In this document: positions 30,736 through 38,307 of the stretch, piece by piece
Layout: each line of letters opens with the position of its first letter
Numbering within the stretch: the first letter of the stretch is position 1
Source of the DNA: Anaeromyxobacter dehalogenans 2CP-1
GTDB taxonomy: Bacteria > Myxococcota > Myxococcia > Myxococcales > Anaeromyxobacteraceae
Assembly: GCF_000022145.1 (NCBI RefSeq)
Contig: NC_011891.1
Location: 496,001-560,000 of the forward strand
Direction: 5' to 3'
Length of the DNA stretch: 64,000 bases
Notes under the pieces: model-generated
Told to the model about the DNA's origin: nothing
The model's database searches: none
What the model saw: the letters and a program-made list of their open reading frames with translations, nothing else
Program-made: the position numbers and the translations under genes

Positions 30736-31638
30736 GTGATCCGCTACGGGCCGGCGGGCTGGGAGTACCGGGACTGGGCCGGCGTGGTCTACCCGCCGGG
30801 CGAGGGCAAGCGCTTCGATCGCCTGGCGTATCTGGCACCCTGGTTCTCGACCGTCGAGGTGGACGCGACGTTCTACCGGCCGTTCCCGGCGGCGGTGGCG
30901 GCGCGCTGGTGCGAGCGGGTGCGCGAGGTCCCCACCTTCCGCTTCGGCGCCAAGATCTGGCGCCGGTTCACGCACGAGCGCGAGGCGTACGGCGCCGAGG
31001 AGGTCGCGCAGGCGCGGGCGGCGCTCGATCGCCTGCACGAGGAGGGCAGGCTCGGCGCGGCGCTGCTCCAGTTCCCGTGGTCGTTCAAGCGGAGCGAGGC
31101 GTCGGAGGAGTGGCTGCGCGGGCTGTTCCGCGCGTTCGCCGGCCTGCCGCTCGCGCTCGAGGTGCGCCACGCCTCGTGGGACGACCCGGAGGTCCTCGAG
31201 GAGCTGGCCGCGGCGGGCGTGGCGCTCGTGAACGTGGACCAGCCGCGCTTCCAGCGCTCGCTCGCGCCGGCCGCGCGGGTCACGGCGCCGGTGGCCTACG
31301 TGCGCGTGCACGGCCGCAACCACCGCGACTGGTTCCGCAAGGGCGCGCCGCGCGACGCGCGCTACGACTACCTCTACGGCGCCGACGAGCTCGCGCCGTG
31401 GGCCGGGCGCATCGCCGAGATGGCCGACTCGCCGCGCGCACCCGACGTGTACGTCGTCACGAACAACCACTTCCGCGGCCAGGCGCCCGCCAACGCGAAG
31501 ATGCTCGAGGCGATGGTGGAGCACCGCCGCGTGGCGGTGCCGCCGCCGCTCCTCGCCGCCTACGAGGCCGCGCTCGCGCCGTTCGCCGCGCCCGCCGGGG
31601 ACGCGGCCACCGGGAACTCGGCCACCACCGGCGCGTGA
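30736..31638 (+). CDS. DUF72 (YecE-like) family protein
   Basis: A 300-residue protein of the DUF72 family, a TIM-barrel-like fold of unknown biochemical role. Typical segments are IRYGPAGWEYRDWAGVVYPP at the start, FSTVEVDATFYRPF, LLQFPWSFK, ALEVRHASW, and VYVRVHGRNHRDWF in the second half, then VVTNNHFRGQAPANA. The GTG at 30736 is chosen since it begins at the first conserved strand. It is divergent from the FHA-GGDEF gene. The last 79 nt overlap the convergent xthA gene, so both proteins end in Ala/Gly-rich tails encoded by the same DNA. Confidence 0.9.
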   Translation: MIRYGPAGWEYRDWAGVVYPPGEGKRFDRLAYLAPWFSTVEVDATFYRPFPAAVAARWCERVREVPTFRFGAKIWRRFTHEREAYGAEEVAQARAALDRLHEEGRLGAALLQFPWSFKRSEASEEWLRGLFRAFAGLPLALEVRHASWDDPEVLEELAAAGVALVNVDQPRFQRSLAPAARVTAPVAYVRVHGRNHRDWFRKGAPRDARYDYLYGADELAPWAGRIAEMADSPRAPDVYVVTNNHFRGQAPANAKMLEAMVEHRRVAVPPPLLAAYEAALAPFAAPAGDAATGNSATTGA

Positions 31639-32354
31639 TCGCTCGTGCCGAAGTCGGCCAGCACCCGGCAGCGCGTGGCGCTGGCCGCGAGCGACGCGCT
31701 CGCCAGCACGTAGTCGATGCGCCAGCCGATGTTCCGCTGGCGGAGGTTGCGCCACGGCGCCCACCAGGTGAACAGCCCCTCGTTGGCGGGATCGAGCGCG
31801 CGCCCCACGTCCACCAGGCCGCGCGACAGGATGCGCTCGAACAGCGCCCGCTCCTCCGGGAGCTGGCCGATGGCGCCCGCCTTTCGCTCCTTCGGGTGAA
31901 CGTCCAGGTCGGTGCGCGCGACGTTCAGGTCCCCGCAGAGCACCAGGCGCCGCCCGGAGGCCTGCGCGTCGGCGGCGAAGCGCTCCATCGCCTCGAGGAA
32001 GCGGAGCTTGGCGGCGAGGTCCTTCCCGCCGTTCGGGACGTAGATCGACGCCACCGTGACGCCGCCCAGCTCGCAGGTGGCGATGCGGGTCTCGAGGTCG
32101 AACGGCGGGTGGACGAAGGCCGGCCGCTCGGGTGCGATCGCCTTGCGCACCAGCAGCGCCACGCCGGAGTAGGCGGTCTCGCCGTGCCACAGGCACCAGT
32201 AGCCCTCGAGCTCGCAGAGCGAGGGCGGGACCTTCGACGGAGGCGCCTTGATCTCCTGCAGGCAGACGACGTCGGGGCCCTCGCGGGCGATGAACTCGCC
32301 CACCTGCGCCTCGCGCGCGCGGATGCCGTTCACGTTCCAGGTGCCGATCTTCAC
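31560..32354 (-). CDS. xthA: Exodeoxyribonuclease III
   Basis: ExoIII is the main AP endonuclease and 3'-repair exonuclease in base excision repair. The 264-residue protein has the full EEP-nuclease set: MKIGTWNVNGIRAR (catalytic Asn), CLQEIKAP (metal Glu), YSGVALLVRK, GGVTVASIYVPNG, LVLCGDLNVAR (Asp/Asn), and the terminal SDHAPVVAEF with the catalytic Asp-His. The length fits. The C-terminal 26 codons overlap the convergent DUF72 gene. Confidence 0.96.
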   Translation of the reverse strand: MKIGTWNVNGIRAREAQVGEFIAREGPDVVCLQEIKAPPSKVPPSLCELEGYWCLWHGETAYSGVALLVRKAIAPERPAFVHPPFDLETRIATCELGGVTVASIYVPNGGKDLAAKLRFLEAMERFAADAQASGRRLVLCGDLNVARTDLDVHPKERKAGAIGQLPEERALFERILSRGLVDVGRALDPANEGLFTWWAPWRNLRQRNIGWRIDYVLASASLAASATRCRVLADFGTSDHAPVVAEFPVAASPAGAANGASAAS

Positions 32355-32634
32355 GCGGTCCCCTCCCGGCCTCCTGTCTAAGGGCCCGGCGGGCGGATGT
32401 CACCGGGCACGGGCGCGCTCCACCTGAGGCCGAGGGCGGCCGGGCGGGGCTGACAGCGCCGCCCATTCGCGTGGAGCCCTGCTGCGGCGCACGCTGGCTG
32501 CCTGCGCCGGGCAGACTCGTCCCTGCGCTGCTCGACGTGCCGACGGGCACGCCTGCGCTGCTCGGTCCTCGTGTGCCCGGCTCGGCGACGCCATCGTGTG
32601 CCTCGCGACGGGCCCCACGCGAACGGGAGGCGCG
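32355..32634. other. Upstream region of the leader peptide and fusion gene
   Basis: No gene seen. CCTGCGCTGCTCG occurs twice about 30 nt apart (near 32521-32565). The last bases hold the GGGAGG SD (32625-32630) of the short leader ORF. Confidence 0.4.
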
Positions 32635-32685
32635 ATGAGATCCCGCCGCCGGGCGCGGCCGCGCTTGATACACATGGAGGAGTGA
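32635..32685 (+). CDS. 16-codon Arg-rich leader peptide
   Basis: MRSRRRARPRLIHMEE starts at ATG 32635, with GGGAGG 4-5 nt upstream. Six of 16 residues are Arg, and it uses AGA and ATA, codons very rare in DNA this GC-rich. Its stop codon overlaps the GTG start of the phosphatase/glycohydrolase fusion (GTGA at 32682-32685). The fusion gene's own SD spacing is poor, so its translation probably depends on ribosomes ending this leader. The ORF and overlap are seen; coupling and any sensing of charged tRNA are inferred. Confidence 0.6.
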   Translation: MRSRRRARPRLIHMEE

Positions 32686-34541
32686 CCGACCTGTCCCGCG
32701 CCCTGGAAGCCGCCCTCCGCGCCGCCCGCGCCGCGGCCGACCTGCTGCGGGCGGAGCTGTTCCGGGCCGGCGGGCCCCGGGGCGAGCCGGGGCACTGCCC
32801 CGCGGACGAGCAGGCGGAGGACCTCATCCGCGCCGTGCTCGAAGCGGAGTTCCCGGGCGACGGCTTCGTGGGTGAGGAGCGGCCCGAGCGCAACCGGCCG
32901 CCGGCCCTGCCGGGCGGCCGGTGCTGGCTCGTCGATCCGAACGACGGGACCGCCGACTTCCAGCGCGGTCACCGCGGCGCCTCGGTGTCGATCGGCCTGG
33001 TGCAGGGCGGCGTGCCGGTGCTCGGGGTGGTGCTCGCCCACACCGCGCCGCACGGCGGGGAGGATCTGCTCGCCTGGGCCGAGGGGCAGGGGCCGGTGCG
33101 GCGGAACGGGGCGCCGCTCCCGCCCGTCTCCGCGGCGCCGCTCCGGGCCGGCGACGTGGTGCTCGTGTCCTCGTCGGCGGCGAAGCGGGCGCGCGGCAAC
33201 GCCGAGGCGGTGCAGCCGGCGCGCTTCCGGCCGCTCACCAGCATCGCCTACCGGCTCGCGCTCGTCGCGACCGGCGAGGCTCGCGGCGCCATCTCGCTGC
33301 ACCGACCCCGCGCGCTCGACATCGCGGCCGGGCACGCGCTCGTCCGCGGCGCGGGCGGCGTGCTCCTCGACGAGGCCGGGCGCGAGGTGCGCTACGGGCC
33401 GGCGGGCGAGGGGCGGGTGGCGTTCTGCTTCGGCGGCGCGCCCCTGGTGGCCGCGCGGCTGGCGAGCCGGAGCTGGGTCGAGGCGCAGGCGTACGGGCCC
33501 GGGGCGCCCGGCCTGTGCGCGCCGCTCGCCGGGCGCGCCGTGCGCGAGGACGGGCTGCTCCGTCGCGGGCAGGGCGCGCTGCTGGGACAGCTCGCCGGCG
33601 ACGCGCTGGGCGGGCAGGTGGAGTTCTCCGGCGCGGCGCGGATCGCCGCCGCTTACCCCGACGGCGTGCGCGACCTCGCCGACGGCGGCCACTGGAGCAC
33701 GCTCGCCGGGCAGCCGACCGACGACTCCGAGCTGGCGCTGGCGCTCGCGCGCACCGTGATCGCGTTCGGGCGCTTCGACGCGGCGCGGGTGGCGGAGGCC
33801 TACGCCGACTGGCTCGGCTCCGAGCCGTTCGACGTCGGCCGGACCGTGGACGCGGCGCTCCGGCCGGCGCTGAGGATCCGGGCCTCGGGCGCGCCGGCCG
33901 AGCAGGTGGCCGAGGCGGCCCGCGCCGCCGCGCCGCGCGGGAGCCTCGCGAACGGCGCGCTGATGCGCGTCTCGCCGCTCGGGATCGCCGGCCACGCCGC
34001 GCCCGCGGCCGAGGTGGCCGCCTGGGCGCGCGCCGACGCCGCGCTCACCCACCCGGCCGCGCCGTGCCAGGACGCGAGCGCGGTGTTCGCGGCCACGGTC
34101 GCCTTCGCCATCGCGACCGGCGCGTCCGCCGCCGAGGTGGCGGATCGCGGCGAGGCGCTCGCCGCCGAGCTGGGCTGCGGCGCGGAGGTGCGCGAGGCGC
34201 TCGCGGCGGCGCGGACCGGCCCGCCGGAGGACTTCGAGGCGAGCGCCGGGCTCGTGACCATCGCCCTGCAGAACGCGTTCTTCCAGCTCCGCCACGCGCC
34301 GGATCTGGAGGCCGGGCTGGTGGACACCGTCGGCCGCGGCGGCGACACCGACACGAACGCGGCCATCGCCGGCGCGCTGCTCGGCGCCGCGCACGGCGTG
34401 CTCGCCGTCCCGGAGCGCTGGCGTCGGGCCGTGCTGAGCTGCTGGCCGGTGGAGGGCGCGCCCGGCGTCCGCCGCCCGCGCCCGCCGGTCTGCTGGCCGG
34501 GCGACGCGCTCATCCTGGCGGAGCGGCTGCTGGGGCTGTGA
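32682..34541 (+). CDS. Inositol-phosphatase-like / ADP-ribosylglycohydrolase fusion
   Basis: A 619-residue fusion. Residues 1-280 are an inositol monophosphatase-family domain with metal ligands GEE (64-66), DPNDGT (85-90) and DIAAGHALVRGAGG (near 212). Residues 295-619 are a DraG-type ADP-ribosylglycohydrolase: LGQLAGDALGG, then TDDSE (near 345) and GGDTDTNAAIAGALLG (near 552), the Mg-binding acidic sites. The first domain would remove a phosphate from a sugar, inositol or nucleotide; the second would hydrolyse an ADP-ribosyl bond. Start GTG 32682 overlaps the leader's stop. The combination suggests step-wise processing of an ADP-ribose-related compound, by inference only. Confidence 0.88.
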   Translation: MTDLSRALEAALRAARAAADLLRAELFRAGGPRGEPGHCPADEQAEDLIRAVLEAEFPGDGFVGEERPERNRPPALPGGRCWLVDPNDGTADFQRGHRGASVSIGLVQGGVPVLGVVLAHTAPHGGEDLLAWAEGQGPVRRNGAPLPPVSAAPLRAGDVVLVSSSAAKRARGNAEAVQPARFRPLTSIAYRLALVATGEARGAISLHRPRALDIAAGHALVRGAGGVLLDEAGREVRYGPAGEGRVAFCFGGAPLVAARLASRSWVEAQAYGPGAPGLCAPLAGRAVREDGLLRRGQGALLGQLAGDALGGQVEFSGAARIAAAYPDGVRDLADGGHWSTLAGQPTDDSELALALARTVIAFGRFDAARVAEAYADWLGSEPFDVGRTVDAALRPALRIRASGAPAEQVAEAARAAAPRGSLANGALMRVSPLGIAGHAAPAAEVAAWARADAALTHPAAPCQDASAVFAATVAFAIATGASAAEVADRGEALAAELGCGAEVREALAAARTGPPEDFEASAGLVTIALQNAFFQLRHAPDLEAGLVDTVGRGGDTDTNAAIAGALLGAAHGVLAVPERWRRAVLSCWPVEGAPGVRRPRPPVCWPGDALILAERLLGL

Positions 34542-34563: not shown

Positions 34564-37500
34564 TCACCCCTCCGGCACCACCAGACGGCTGCGGCCGGCG
34601 GAGACGCGCTCGACGGTGACCTGCACGCCGATGCGCTCGTGCAGCTCGGGGACGTGGGAGATGACGCCCACGGTGCGGCCGGTCTGGCGCAGCCCCTCGA
34701 GCGCGGCCATGGCGTGCTCGAGCGTGTCGCGGTCGAGCGTCCCGAAGCCCTCGTCGATGAACAGCGTCCGCGCGTGCGCGGCGCGGGTGGAGAGCGAGGC
34801 GAGGCCGAGCGCGAGCGCGAGCGCGAGCGAGACCAGGAACAGCTCGCCGCCCGAGAGGCCGTTCACGGTGCGCACCTCGTCGCCGAGGTCGTGGTCCACG
34901 ACCTGGATCTCGAGGTCGGCGCCGGGGACGCGCATCAGCTCGTAGCGGCGGGCGAGGTCGCGCAGGTGGACGTTGGCGGCCGCGAGCAGGCCGTCGAGCG
35001 CGAGCCCCTGGGCGTAGCGCCGGAAGCGGCTGCCGTCGGCGGAGCCGATCACCTTGGCGAGCCGCTCCCACCGGTCCGTCGCGGCGCGCGCGGCCTCGAG
35101 CGCGCCGGACACCTCTTCGTGCCGGGCGCGGGCGTCCTCGTCGCGCCGCAGGTCGAGCGTCACCTGCGAGTGCTCCTCGCCGAGGCGCGTCGCCTCGCGC
35201 TCGGCGCCGGCGTGGCGGGCGCGGGCGCCCGCGGCGTCGCAGCCGGGGCGGCTGCCGCCGTGCGCCTCGACCTGCCGGCGGCGCTCGTCGCGCACCGCGG
35301 CGGCGGCCTGCGCGGCCCCGGCGCAGGCCTCGAGATCGGCGCGCGCCTGCGCGGCCCACGCATGGCCGCGGGCGAGTCGGACCTCCAGCGCGGGCCGATC
35401 GACGCCGAGCGCCGTGAGCGCGGCGGCGAGCGTCGCGCCGGCGCGGGCCGCGTCGGCGTCGGCGGCGTCGCGCGCGGTCGCGCCGGCCCGGGCGGCCTCC
35501 GCGGCGGCGGCGTGCGCACGGTCCGCGTCCGCGCGCGAGGCGCGAGCCCGCTCGTGCGCGGCCCGGGCGCGCTCGAGCGCCTCGCGCAGCGCGCCCTCCA
35601 CCTCGTCCGCCGGCTTCCCGGCGAGCACGGCGCGCCGCTCGGCCTCGGCCCGCTCGCGCGCGGCGCGCGCCTCCGCGGCGGTCTCCTCGGCGCGCGCGGC
35701 GCGGGCGCCCCGCTCGCCGGCGAGCGCCGCGGCCTTCTCCGCGCCGGCGGCGCGCGCGGCGACGTCCGCCGCGGCCGCGTCGCGCGCCCGGACCTGCGCG
35801 GCGTGCGCCTCGGCGCGCGCGGCGCAGCCGGCCCGGAACGCCTCGGGTCCTCGCCGCGCCGCCTCCGGCCAGTCCGGCAGGAACCCGAGCGCGGGGGCGA
35901 GCTCGGCCTCGATCCGCCCGAGCGCGGCCGCGTGTCGCGCGGCCGCGGCCTCGTGCGCCGTCACCGCGGCGGCGGCGTCGTCCCGGGCCTTCTCGAGCGC
36001 GCGCTGCCGCGCCCGCGCCGCCTCGTGCGCCTCGCGGGCCGCGTCCACCTCCGCGCGCGCGGCGCGCTCCGCCTCGGCGGCGCCGCGCGCCGCCTCCAGC
36101 GCGGCCTTCGCGGCCTCGAGCGCGGCCTTCGCGTCGCGCCCGCGGGCCTCGACGGCGGCGGCGGCCTCCTCGGCGCGCCCCGGCAGCTCGACGCCGCCGG
36201 CCGCCGGCGCCGCCAGCCGGGCGCGGAGCGCGTCGTACTCGGCCGCGTGGTGCGCGCGATCGACCTCGGCCTGCGCCTCGGCCCGCCGCGCCGCCTCGAC
36301 CCGCGCCGCGAGCTCCGAGGCGCGCGCCGCGACCGCCTCGCGCTCGCGGGTGGCCCCGCGCACCGCCTCCTCCGCCTCGGCCGCGGCCGCGCGCTGCGCC
36401 TCGAGCAGCGCCGGGAGCGGCGCGCCGTGCGCGTACGGGTGCTCGGCGGCGCCGCAGAGCGGGCAGGGCTCGCCGTCCACGAGGTCGGCGCGCCGGTCGG
36501 CGAGGCCGAGCGTCAGCTCCACCCGCCGCAGCGCCGCGCGGGCCTGCGCGGCCCCCGCCTCGGCCGCCCGCACCGCCGCCTCGGCCGCCGCGTGCGTGCG
36601 CTGCGTCGCCACCTGCTCCGCGCCGCCAGCGGCCGCCTCCGTCCGCGCCTGCTCGCGGCGGGCCGTCGCCACGGCCGCGGCCTGGGCCGCCTTCCACGCC
36701 TCGCCGAGGAGCGCGCGCAGGTCGCCGAGCCGGGCCACCTCGGTGGTGAGCGCCGCCGCGTCGGCGCCGGCGGCCGTCCGGGCGGCGTCCGCGAGCGCCG
36801 CGCGGGCCGCTTCGAGGCGCCGGGCCGCCGCCTCCGCGCCGCGGGCCTCCGCGGCGAGCGCGCGCGCCGCCTCCGCGTCGGCCTCGCGCGCGGCGCGCAG
36901 CCCGGCCTCGGCCTGCGCGGCGCCGGCGCACTCCGCCGCGTGCTCCGCGAGCCGCGCCGCCCACCGGTTCCACTCCGCCGCGAGCGGCGCCTCGGCCGCG
37001 TGCGCCGCGAGCCACGCCTCGGCCGCGTCGCGCGCCGTCGCCGCCGCCTCGCGGGCGCGCGCCGCCGCGTCCGCCTCGGCCGCCGCCTGCGCCTGCTCCG
37101 CGCGCGCGGTCGCGAGCGCCGCCCCCGCGTCGGCCTCCGCGCGGCGCGCGGCCGCGAGCGACTCGTCCCGCCGGCGCGCCTCGGCCAGCTCCGGCCGCGC
37201 CCGCGCCTCCGCGGCGTCCGCCGCCTCGAGCGCAGCGCGCGCGTCCGCCTCGCCGCGCGCCGCGGCGGCGGCGCCCACCTCCGCCCGCCCGAGCGCGACC
37301 TGCGCCTCCGCCGCCCGCGCCTCCACGCCGGTCCGCGCCTGCTCGGCCCGGACCGCCTCGGCGAGCGCCGCCCGGTGCGGCTCGGCCGCCTCGACCTCGG
37401 CCAGCTCGGCGCGGAGCGCGGCCCCCTCCTCCACCGCGCGCGCCGCGCGGGCGAGCTCCGCCTCCGAGCGCTCCAGCCCGTCGCGCAGCTCCGCGTCCCG

Positions 37501-38307
37501 CTGGTGCCAGCGGACCTCGGCCTCCGCGGCACGCGCCGCCGCCTTCGCCTCCTCGAGCGCCCGCGCCAGCTCCGCCTGCCGCGCCTGGAGCGCGGCGCGG
37601 GCCTCGGCGTCCAGCACCTTCACGCCGCCCAGCTCGCCTTCGAGCCGCTCGCGGACCTCGAGCTCGCGCCCGAGGCGCTGGTGCGCCGCCTGCGAGAGCC
37701 GCCCGTACACGGCGGTGCCGGTGACGCGCTCGAGGATGGCGGCGCGCACGTCGGCGTCGGCGCGCAGGAAGTTGGTGAACTCGAACTGCGGCAGGACCAC
37801 CGCCCGCTTCAGCTCGTCGAAGGTGAACCCGATGGCGCGCTCGTTGAAGGCCACCGCCTGCGTGACCTTCTCGGCCAGCACCTCGCCGGTGTCGAGGTCC
37901 TCGACCGTCATGGCCTGCGCCTGGAACGCGCCCTCCACCCGGTCGCGCGCGCGGCGCACGCGCCAGCGCGCCAGGTACCGGCGCCCGTCCATGCCCTGGT
38001 ACTCGACCTCTGCGGTGGCGCCGGCGGTGCCGCGCGACACGAGGGCGCGGACGTCGTTCATGTCGAGGGTCTCGCCCTCCTCCGACCAGCCCACCATGAC
38101 GCGCTTGCCGGCGGCGCGGTCGCGCAGGCGCGGGGTCTTGCCGTAGAGCGCCAGGCAGAGGGCGTCGAGCAGGGTGGACTTGCCCGAGCCGGTGGGACCG
38201 GCGATGGAGAAGATGCCCGCGCCGGCGATGGGCGCGCGGTCGAGCCGCAGCTCGAACTTGCCGTAGAGGCTGGCGAGGTTCTCGCCGCGGATGGCCAGGA
38301 TCCTCAC
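34564..38307 (-). CDS. sbcC: DNA repair ATPase SbcC (Rad50-like)
   Basis: The large ATPase of the SbcCD nuclease that cleaves DNA hairpins and blocked ends. The 1,247-residue protein has Walker A GPTGSGKST (37-45), long Ala/Glu/Arg-rich coiled coils either side of a zinc hook CPLC (near 614-617), the ABC signature LSGGE (near 1150) and Walker B TLFIDEGFG (near 1180). Translation starts at GTG 38307, overlapping the sbcD stop by 4 nt (GTGA). The coiled coils are extremely Ala/Arg/Glu-biased, which creates many long spurious frames on the other strands. Confidence 0.95.
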   Translation of the reverse strand: MRILAIRGENLASLYGKFELRLDRAPIAGAGIFSIAGPTGSGKSTLLDALCLALYGKTPRLRDRAAGKRVMVGWSEEGETLDMNDVRALVSRGTAGATAEVEYQGMDGRRYLARWRVRRARDRVEGAFQAQAMTVEDLDTGEVLAEKVTQAVAFNERAIGFTFDELKRAVVLPQFEFTNFLRADADVRAAILERVTGTAVYGRLSQAAHQRLGRELEVRERLEGELGGVKVLDAEARAALQARQAELARALEEAKAAARAAEAEVRWHQRDAELRDGLERSEAELARAARAVEEGAALRAELAEVEAAEPHRAALAEAVRAEQARTGVEARAAEAQVALGRAEVGAAAAARGEADARAALEAADAAEARARPELAEARRRDESLAAARRAEADAGAALATARAEQAQAAAEADAAARAREAAATARDAAEAWLAAHAAEAPLAAEWNRWAARLAEHAAECAGAAQAEAGLRAAREADAEAARALAAEARGAEAAARRLEAARAALADAARTAAGADAAALTTEVARLGDLRALLGEAWKAAQAAAVATARREQARTEAAAGGAEQVATQRTHAAAEAAVRAAEAGAAQARAALRRVELTLGLADRRADLVDGEPCPLCGAAEHPYAHGAPLPALLEAQRAAAAEAEEAVRGATREREAVAARASELAARVEAARRAEAQAEVDRAHHAAEYDALRARLAAPAAGGVELPGRAEEAAAAVEARGRDAKAALEAAKAALEAARGAAEAERAARAEVDAAREAHEAARARQRALEKARDDAAAAVTAHEAAAARHAAALGRIEAELAPALGFLPDWPEAARRGPEAFRAGCAARAEAHAAQVRARDAAAADVAARAAGAEKAAALAGERGARAARAEETAAEARAARERAEAERRAVLAGKPADEVEGALREALERARAAHERARASRADADRAHAAAAEAARAGATARDAADADAARAGATLAAALTALGVDRPALEVRLARGHAWAAQARADLEACAGAAQAAAAVRDERRRQVEAHGGSRPGCDAAGARARHAGAEREATRLGEEHSQVTLDLRRDEDARARHEEVSGALEAARAATDRWERLAKVIGSADGSRFRRYAQGLALDGLLAAANVHLRDLARRYELMRVPGADLEIQVVDHDLGDEVRTVNGLSGGELFLVSLALALALGLASLSTRAAHARTLFIDEGFGTLDRDTLEHAMAALEGLRQTGRTVGVISHVPELHERIGVQVTVERVSAGRSRLVVPEG

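Follow-up and report, generated by a model that had tools for sequence, protein, structure and literature searches.

A widely scattered inositol-phosphatase and ADP-ribosylglycohydrolase fusion protein in Anaeromyxobacter dehalogenans 2CP-1, preceded by a repeat end that resembles an arginine-rich leader peptide

Genomic context

The window analyzed here is a stretch of 64,000 nucleotides, positions 496001-560000 of the single 5,029,329-bp contig of Anaeromyxobacter dehalogenans 2CP-1, and all coordinates below are window positions. A single open frame on the forward strand (32682..34541) encodes a 619 aa protein that joins an inositol-phosphatase-like half to a DraG-like ADP-ribosylglycohydrolase (ARG) half, hereafter the fusion. 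Its GTG start matches the position at which the orthologues begin. An xthA-like exodeoxyribonuclease III gene (31560..32354, reverse strand) is divergent from the fusion gene, while an sbcC-like gene (34564..38307, reverse strand) and an sbcD-like gene are convergent with it; these three names were judged from sequence. No Nudix, vWA, WYL or ADP-ribosyltransferase partner was found in the window, where the fusion stands alone.

Two further features lie between the xthA-like gene and the fusion gene. The first is a copy of a palindromic, MITE-like repeat of about 190 bp (32450..32639), with arms at 32441-32479 and 32610-32648. The second is a 16-codon ORF on the forward strand (32635..32685), with its ATG at 32635 and its TGA at 32683-32685, whose product MRSRRRARPRLIHMEE includes six Arg residues and whose codons include one AGA and one ATA. 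An SD-like GGGAGG (32625..32630, forward strand) is located 4 bases 5' of this ATG, within the right inverted arm of the repeat, and the TGA is overlapped by the GTG start of the fusion gene at 32682 (GTGA). The original prediction had described this small ORF exactly as it is found, and had suggested in addition that it could be a regulatory leader peptide, a role that the evidence in the next section does not support. Neither a sigma-70-like promoter nor a terminator-like site was detected upstream of the fusion gene (32350-32760 scanned); the terminator scan bears on transcriptional attenuation, and a purely translational mechanism lies outside its reach. A TANNNT motif is present 6 bases 5' of the GTG in two orthologous loci (L007 and L009); the window's own motif is weak, and a leaderless start is not claimed.

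The upstream reading frame and the palindromic repeat

An arginine-sensing leader would let Arg-tRNA charging govern translation of the leader and gate the fusion gene through the GTGA overlap. The parts of such a device exist, with an SD-like site, an ATG, six Arg codons and a stop that overlaps the next start. The existence of the ORF is unremarkable, however. Dinucleotide shuffling of the upstream region gives an SD and an ATG-initiated mini-ORF that stops near the start codon in 6.5% of cases, and in 16% when GTG and TTG starts are also allowed. Its Arg share of 0.375 does favor a leader, as just 0.5% of the chance ORFs from the shuffles equal or exceed it.

The SD-like site and the start codon belong to the repeat. 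Thirteen full-length copies of the element (at least 95% identity) are present in this genome, together with fragments and four further copies that have a near-identical core and different outer arms. Matches were found in 17 of the 24 genomes of the family (E <= 1e-10). Across the copies compared (L054-L069), the repeat family has a near-invariant core of about 134 bp and two kinds of outer arm. All full copies terminate in GGGAGGCGC followed by one variable base and (A/G)T, usually (A/G)TGAG, and since every full copy ends the same way, the SD-plus-start arrangement is a property of the repeat. The right inverted arm of this mobile-looking palindrome, placed beside the fusion gene, yields a short Arg-rich ORF that runs into the gene start by chance. 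Similar Arg-containing mini-ORFs are read from the ends of other copies, with lengths of 8, 15, 20 and 25 codons and 2, 4, 5 and 7 Arg codons respectively, or the reading continues into longer frames. One copy (L065) has its right end 3 codons before MLIDLDLCVGCKACVSACK..., the apparent start of a 4Fe-4S ferredoxin-type protein, and the SD-like site and start of that copy may affect a real gene there.

The element is predicted to fold as RNA into a long hairpin (-128.3 kcal/mol versus -107.0 for shuffles, z -4.7), with the SD-like site base-paired within it. Among 17 aligned copies, three arm pairs are changed on both sides with pairing kept, all of them in the four variant-arm copies. Possible 3-bp TGA/TCA repeats flank only some copies, and the window contains no Rfam match. 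With its many copies, its inverted ends and a relative that lacks it at this locus, the repeat looks like a MITE-type element or a structured repeat.

That relative is Anaeromyxobacter sp. PSR-1, whose fusion protein has 94% identity to that of the window. The other relatives compared are four genomes designated G001 (5,013,479 bp, 94% protein identity), G003 (68%), and G022 and G023 (58-59%). Repeat matches elsewhere in these genomes number one of near full length in G001, three in PSR-1 and many in G003. At the PSR-1 locus about 185 bases are missing, the SD-like site and ATG of the leader among them, and the region adjoining the xthA-like gene continues directly into GAGATCCCGCC... The bases downstream are retained, with CGG at the position of the ATG, so PSR-1 has no start. 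Nothing similar to the leader was found at the G003, G022 or G023 loci. The leader is accordingly not conserved, as the repeat is absent from the PSR-1 locus and the three distant relatives have nothing similar. Its length is the same in G001, a point in favor of function, and five of its 16 residues there are Arg, versus six in the window. The two copies differ by five bases in three codons, and all three codon changes are non-synonymous, versus 57 synonymous and 36 non-synonymous changed codons in the fusion gene. The peptide shows no visible constraint; the small number of changes makes this slight evidence when taken singly, but it agrees with the rest.

Leader conservation, selected codon enrichment and a downstream terminator or alternative pairing would each mark an amino-acid-responsive attenuator, and none of them was found here. 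An arginine-sensing leader whose start and SD are the end of a multi-copy repeat, absent from a close relative, changing only non-synonymously, with its SD predicted to be paired and no terminator in the scanned region, is very improbable, and we judge the ORF to be a by-product of the repeat-element end with no regulatory role. Repeat ends with a built-in SD-like site and start can fabricate convincing, even codon-biased, leader peptides, and this deserves caution when such peptides are proposed.

The fusion protein

The N-terminal half contains a PF00459 inositol-phosphatase (IMPase) domain (residues 8-238, 32703..33395, forward strand; E 6.6e-33), with GEE (65-66), DPNDGT (85-90) and D213. 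The C-terminal half contains a PF03747 ARG domain (residues 298-579, 33573..34418, forward strand; E 3.6e-53), with E314, T346-D348, D384, H457, D555, D557 and T558. The IMPase motifs and the ARG metal residues (E314, T346, D347, D348, D555, D557, T558) are all intact in the window protein. An AlphaFold (AF2) model of the two halves together is confident (pLDDT 94.4, pTM 0.93). The structural neighbors of its C-terminal part are Tri1, DraG and ARH3 (Z 34-39), and those of its N-terminal part are SuhB and IMPase (Z about 30; SuhB 30.8). The presence of both hydrolases on one chain, as originally predicted, is thus borne out by the single frame, the Pfam and PDB matches and the predicted fold.

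Both active sites are preserved in most of about 40 orthologues. The ARG motifs are lost in four of these (L044, L046, L049 and L139), the IMPase motif is lacking in three others (L140-L142), and one more (L037) has DPNSGT. The two halves decay independently, and their reactions need not be coupled. A search of freely accessible literature found no paper that speaks of an ADP-ribosylglycohydrolase and an inositol monophosphatase as fused. The protein is real and occurs in scattered lineages over a wide range, and we provisionally take it to be undescribed.

Distribution and origin

Of 299 genomes sampled in the neighborhood of an Acetobacteraceae member, a profile search found the fusion in 11, and of 301 Chloroflexota genomes in 15, a few of these matches being partial. 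Among Myxococcota, nine genomes have it at full length and two have copies cut by contig ends. Named matches include Sorangium cellulosum, Roseomonas, a Planctomyces MAG and an acidobacterial MAG, and the fusion also occurs on plasmids of Azospirillum, Rhodobacter and Pseudomonas luteola. Phage records and PADLOC gave no match to it.

A tree of the ARG domain groups the fusions together, with two label changes, and places stand-alone ARGs from Myxococcota and elsewhere mostly outside. In the tree of the IMPase domain, two IMPases that stand alone on Pseudomonas plasmids group with the P. luteola fusion and so nest within the fusion clade, and the ARG half would seem to have been lost on these plasmids. 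The two genes (L145, 5932-6720; L146, 5917-6726) have no annotated ARG neighbor, and the Pseudomonas/Stutzerimonas plasmids that carry them are conjugative or mobilizable. The topologies are consistent with one fusion event, or a near single origin, in trees that were quickly built, have SH-aLRT support only and include some long branches. The original prediction was to fall if the leader were not conserved or not translated and the two domains occurred separately in close relatives, and this has come about by half. The leader is not conserved, and each domain does occur alone, ARG in other Myxococcota and elsewhere and IMPase on Pseudomonas plasmids, yet most members of the fusion clade have the two domains joined.

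Genes near the fusion in other genomes

No operon partner of the fusion is conserved across phyla, and its neighbors are lineage-specific. In four alphaproteobacterial genomes the fusion gene directly follows MerR and vWA genes, and in Roseomonas there is an ATGA overlap. A Nudix hydrolase gene lies directly downstream in Limobrevibacterium, in Rhodobacter sp. CZR27 and in a further genome (G351). At three alphaproteobacterial loci (L051, 6812-7429; L121; L147, 7686-8288), the Nudix protein encoded directly 3' of the fusion belongs to a subfamily sharing EPTNH(Y/F)GGY. In four other genomes, all from the Acetobacteraceae sample (L122, L123, L125 and L127), this position is occupied by a 2OG-Fe(II) oxygenase gene. 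On plasmids, WYL regulators, an HD protein, a RecB-like nuclease and a restriction endonuclease are found near the fusion. The A. dehalogenans genome yielded no KptA-type 2'-phosphotransferase in a search whose positive controls matched in three genomes. A search of it for DraT gave no match, and the control genomes gave none either.

Possible function

According to a review, Asp97 is crucial in DraG and has no counterpart in ARH1 or ARH3, while Tyr212 and an ExxA motif serve DraG in adenine recognition (PMC7050489). With DraG numbering anchored by the D97N entry 2woe, Asp97 corresponds to D384 in the window fusion and is D in 31 of 34 fusions. Tyr212 corresponds to L524 and is Trp in 28 of the 34, and Glu121 of the ExxA motif corresponds to R419, with R or K in 17. 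We read the C-terminal half as DraG-like because the binuclear-metal residues and the DraG-type Asp are intact, and an ADP-ribose-type substrate is a reasonable supposition. The substrate is possibly other than ADP-ribosyl-arginine or ADP-ribose, since the adenine-binding residues of DraG are not kept.

The reading that we prefer, and to which we give about an even chance, has the C-terminal half taking off a group of the ADP-ribosyl type and the N-terminal half acting on a phosphate of the resulting product or of something derived from it. The DraG-like half would most likely cleave an ADP-ribosyl-type conjugate at its glycosidic bond. The N-terminal half, as a metal-dependent phosphomonoesterase, would strip phosphate from the released or modified nucleotide or sugar, or from a later breakdown product. 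Some alphaproteobacterial loci may contribute a Nudix hydrolase to this breakdown. The fusion would then act like the couplings of ARG domains and phosphatases that have been proposed to reverse ADP-ribosylation imposed from outside. A chain that combines DraG-like and inositol-phosphatase-like halves, and that several phyla keep with both sites, suggests a substrate of the ADP-ribose type that is phosphorylated or processed further.

Rather less probable is an accident of history that placed on one chain two domains with unrelated metabolites as substrates. The N-terminal half would be a general sugar-phosphate or nucleotide-phosphate phosphatase resembling CysQ, HisN or SuhB, and the C-terminal half would have a housekeeping role as a glycohydrolase or riboside hydrolase. 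Independent loss of motifs from either half speaks for this account, as do the stand-alone occurrence of both domains, the want of an operon conserved across phyla and the altered adenine contacts. Against it, the fused form with both sites intact endures over several phyla, the joint structure is predicted with confidence, and the Nudix, vWA and WYL neighbors that some lineages have are suggestive of ADP-ribose chemistry.

We consider it improbable that the substrates are small NAD(P) derivatives and not modified proteins, with the phosphatase removing the 2'-phosphate of NADP or phospho-ADP-ribose and the glycohydrolase clearing by-products such as alpha-NAD, O-acetyl-ADP-ribose or ADP-ribose-1''-phosphate. 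ARH3 does act on O-acetyl-ADP-ribose (PMC7050489), a basic residue stands in place of the adenine-reading Glu, and relatives of IMPase include an NADP phosphatase. The match of the fusion to that phosphatase (NCBIfam NF010678) is weak, however, at E 0.0033; the genome is without a KptA to make phosphorylated ADP-ribose, and the Asp that ARH3 lacks is kept.

More doubtful still is the idea that the fusion acts as an eraser of a modification outside the reach of DraG and ARH enzymes, namely an ADP-ribosyl-like group with an extra phosphate or a non-adenine base. On the single chain, the phosphatase half would trim the phosphate and the DraG-like half would cut the glycosidic bond. The R or K at the place of Glu121 and the Trp or Leu for Tyr212 would fit such a substrate.

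Comparison with known enzymes and systems

DraG, as represented by the R. rubrum 2woc and Azospirillum 3g9d structures, shares its fold and binuclear-metal residues with the C-terminal half of the fusion. DraG has no fused phosphatase, whereas the fusion is a phosphatase and glycohydrolase chain, and it scores 134.3 bits against the DraG equivalog TIGR02662, below the cut-off of 337. An ADP-ribosyl-type bond is plausible as the target, and the nucleotide recognized may differ from plain ADP-ribose. The nearest relatives of the ARG half by tree, the stand-alone ARGs of other Myxococcota (L101-L109), are single-domain proteins outside the fusion clade.

The N-terminal half has the fold of the SuhB/CysQ/HisN superfamily and its intact metal motifs GEE, DPxDGT and D..AGH. 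The fusion differs in its distinctive DPNDGT and its attached glycohydrolase, and it falls below every IMPase equivalog cut-off (HisN, 68.7 versus 275 bits; CysQ, 67.5 versus 229 bits). The nearest relatives of this half, the stand-alone IMPases of the Pseudomonas plasmids, are likewise single-domain proteins, placed inside the fusion clade.

The closest parallel at the level of systems is the coupling of ARG domains to phosphatases, which has been proposed to undo viral ADP-ribosylation and in which nucleases, vWA proteins and either Nudix or WYL regulators also take part (PMC9503650, section 3.8). The phosphatases of these systems are of the rhodanese-type, calcineurin-like, HD or HAD kinds, and the main text of that paper makes no mention of inositol. 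ARG and phosphatase occur there on one chain or in adjacent genes, and in the fusion they share one chain. A Nudix, vWA or WYL gene adjoins some other orthologues of the fusion but is absent in the window, which has no chaperone-like or nuclease gene of such systems alongside the fusion either. From these likenesses, the fusion appears to be one more phosphatase variant of the ARG-phosphatase theme.
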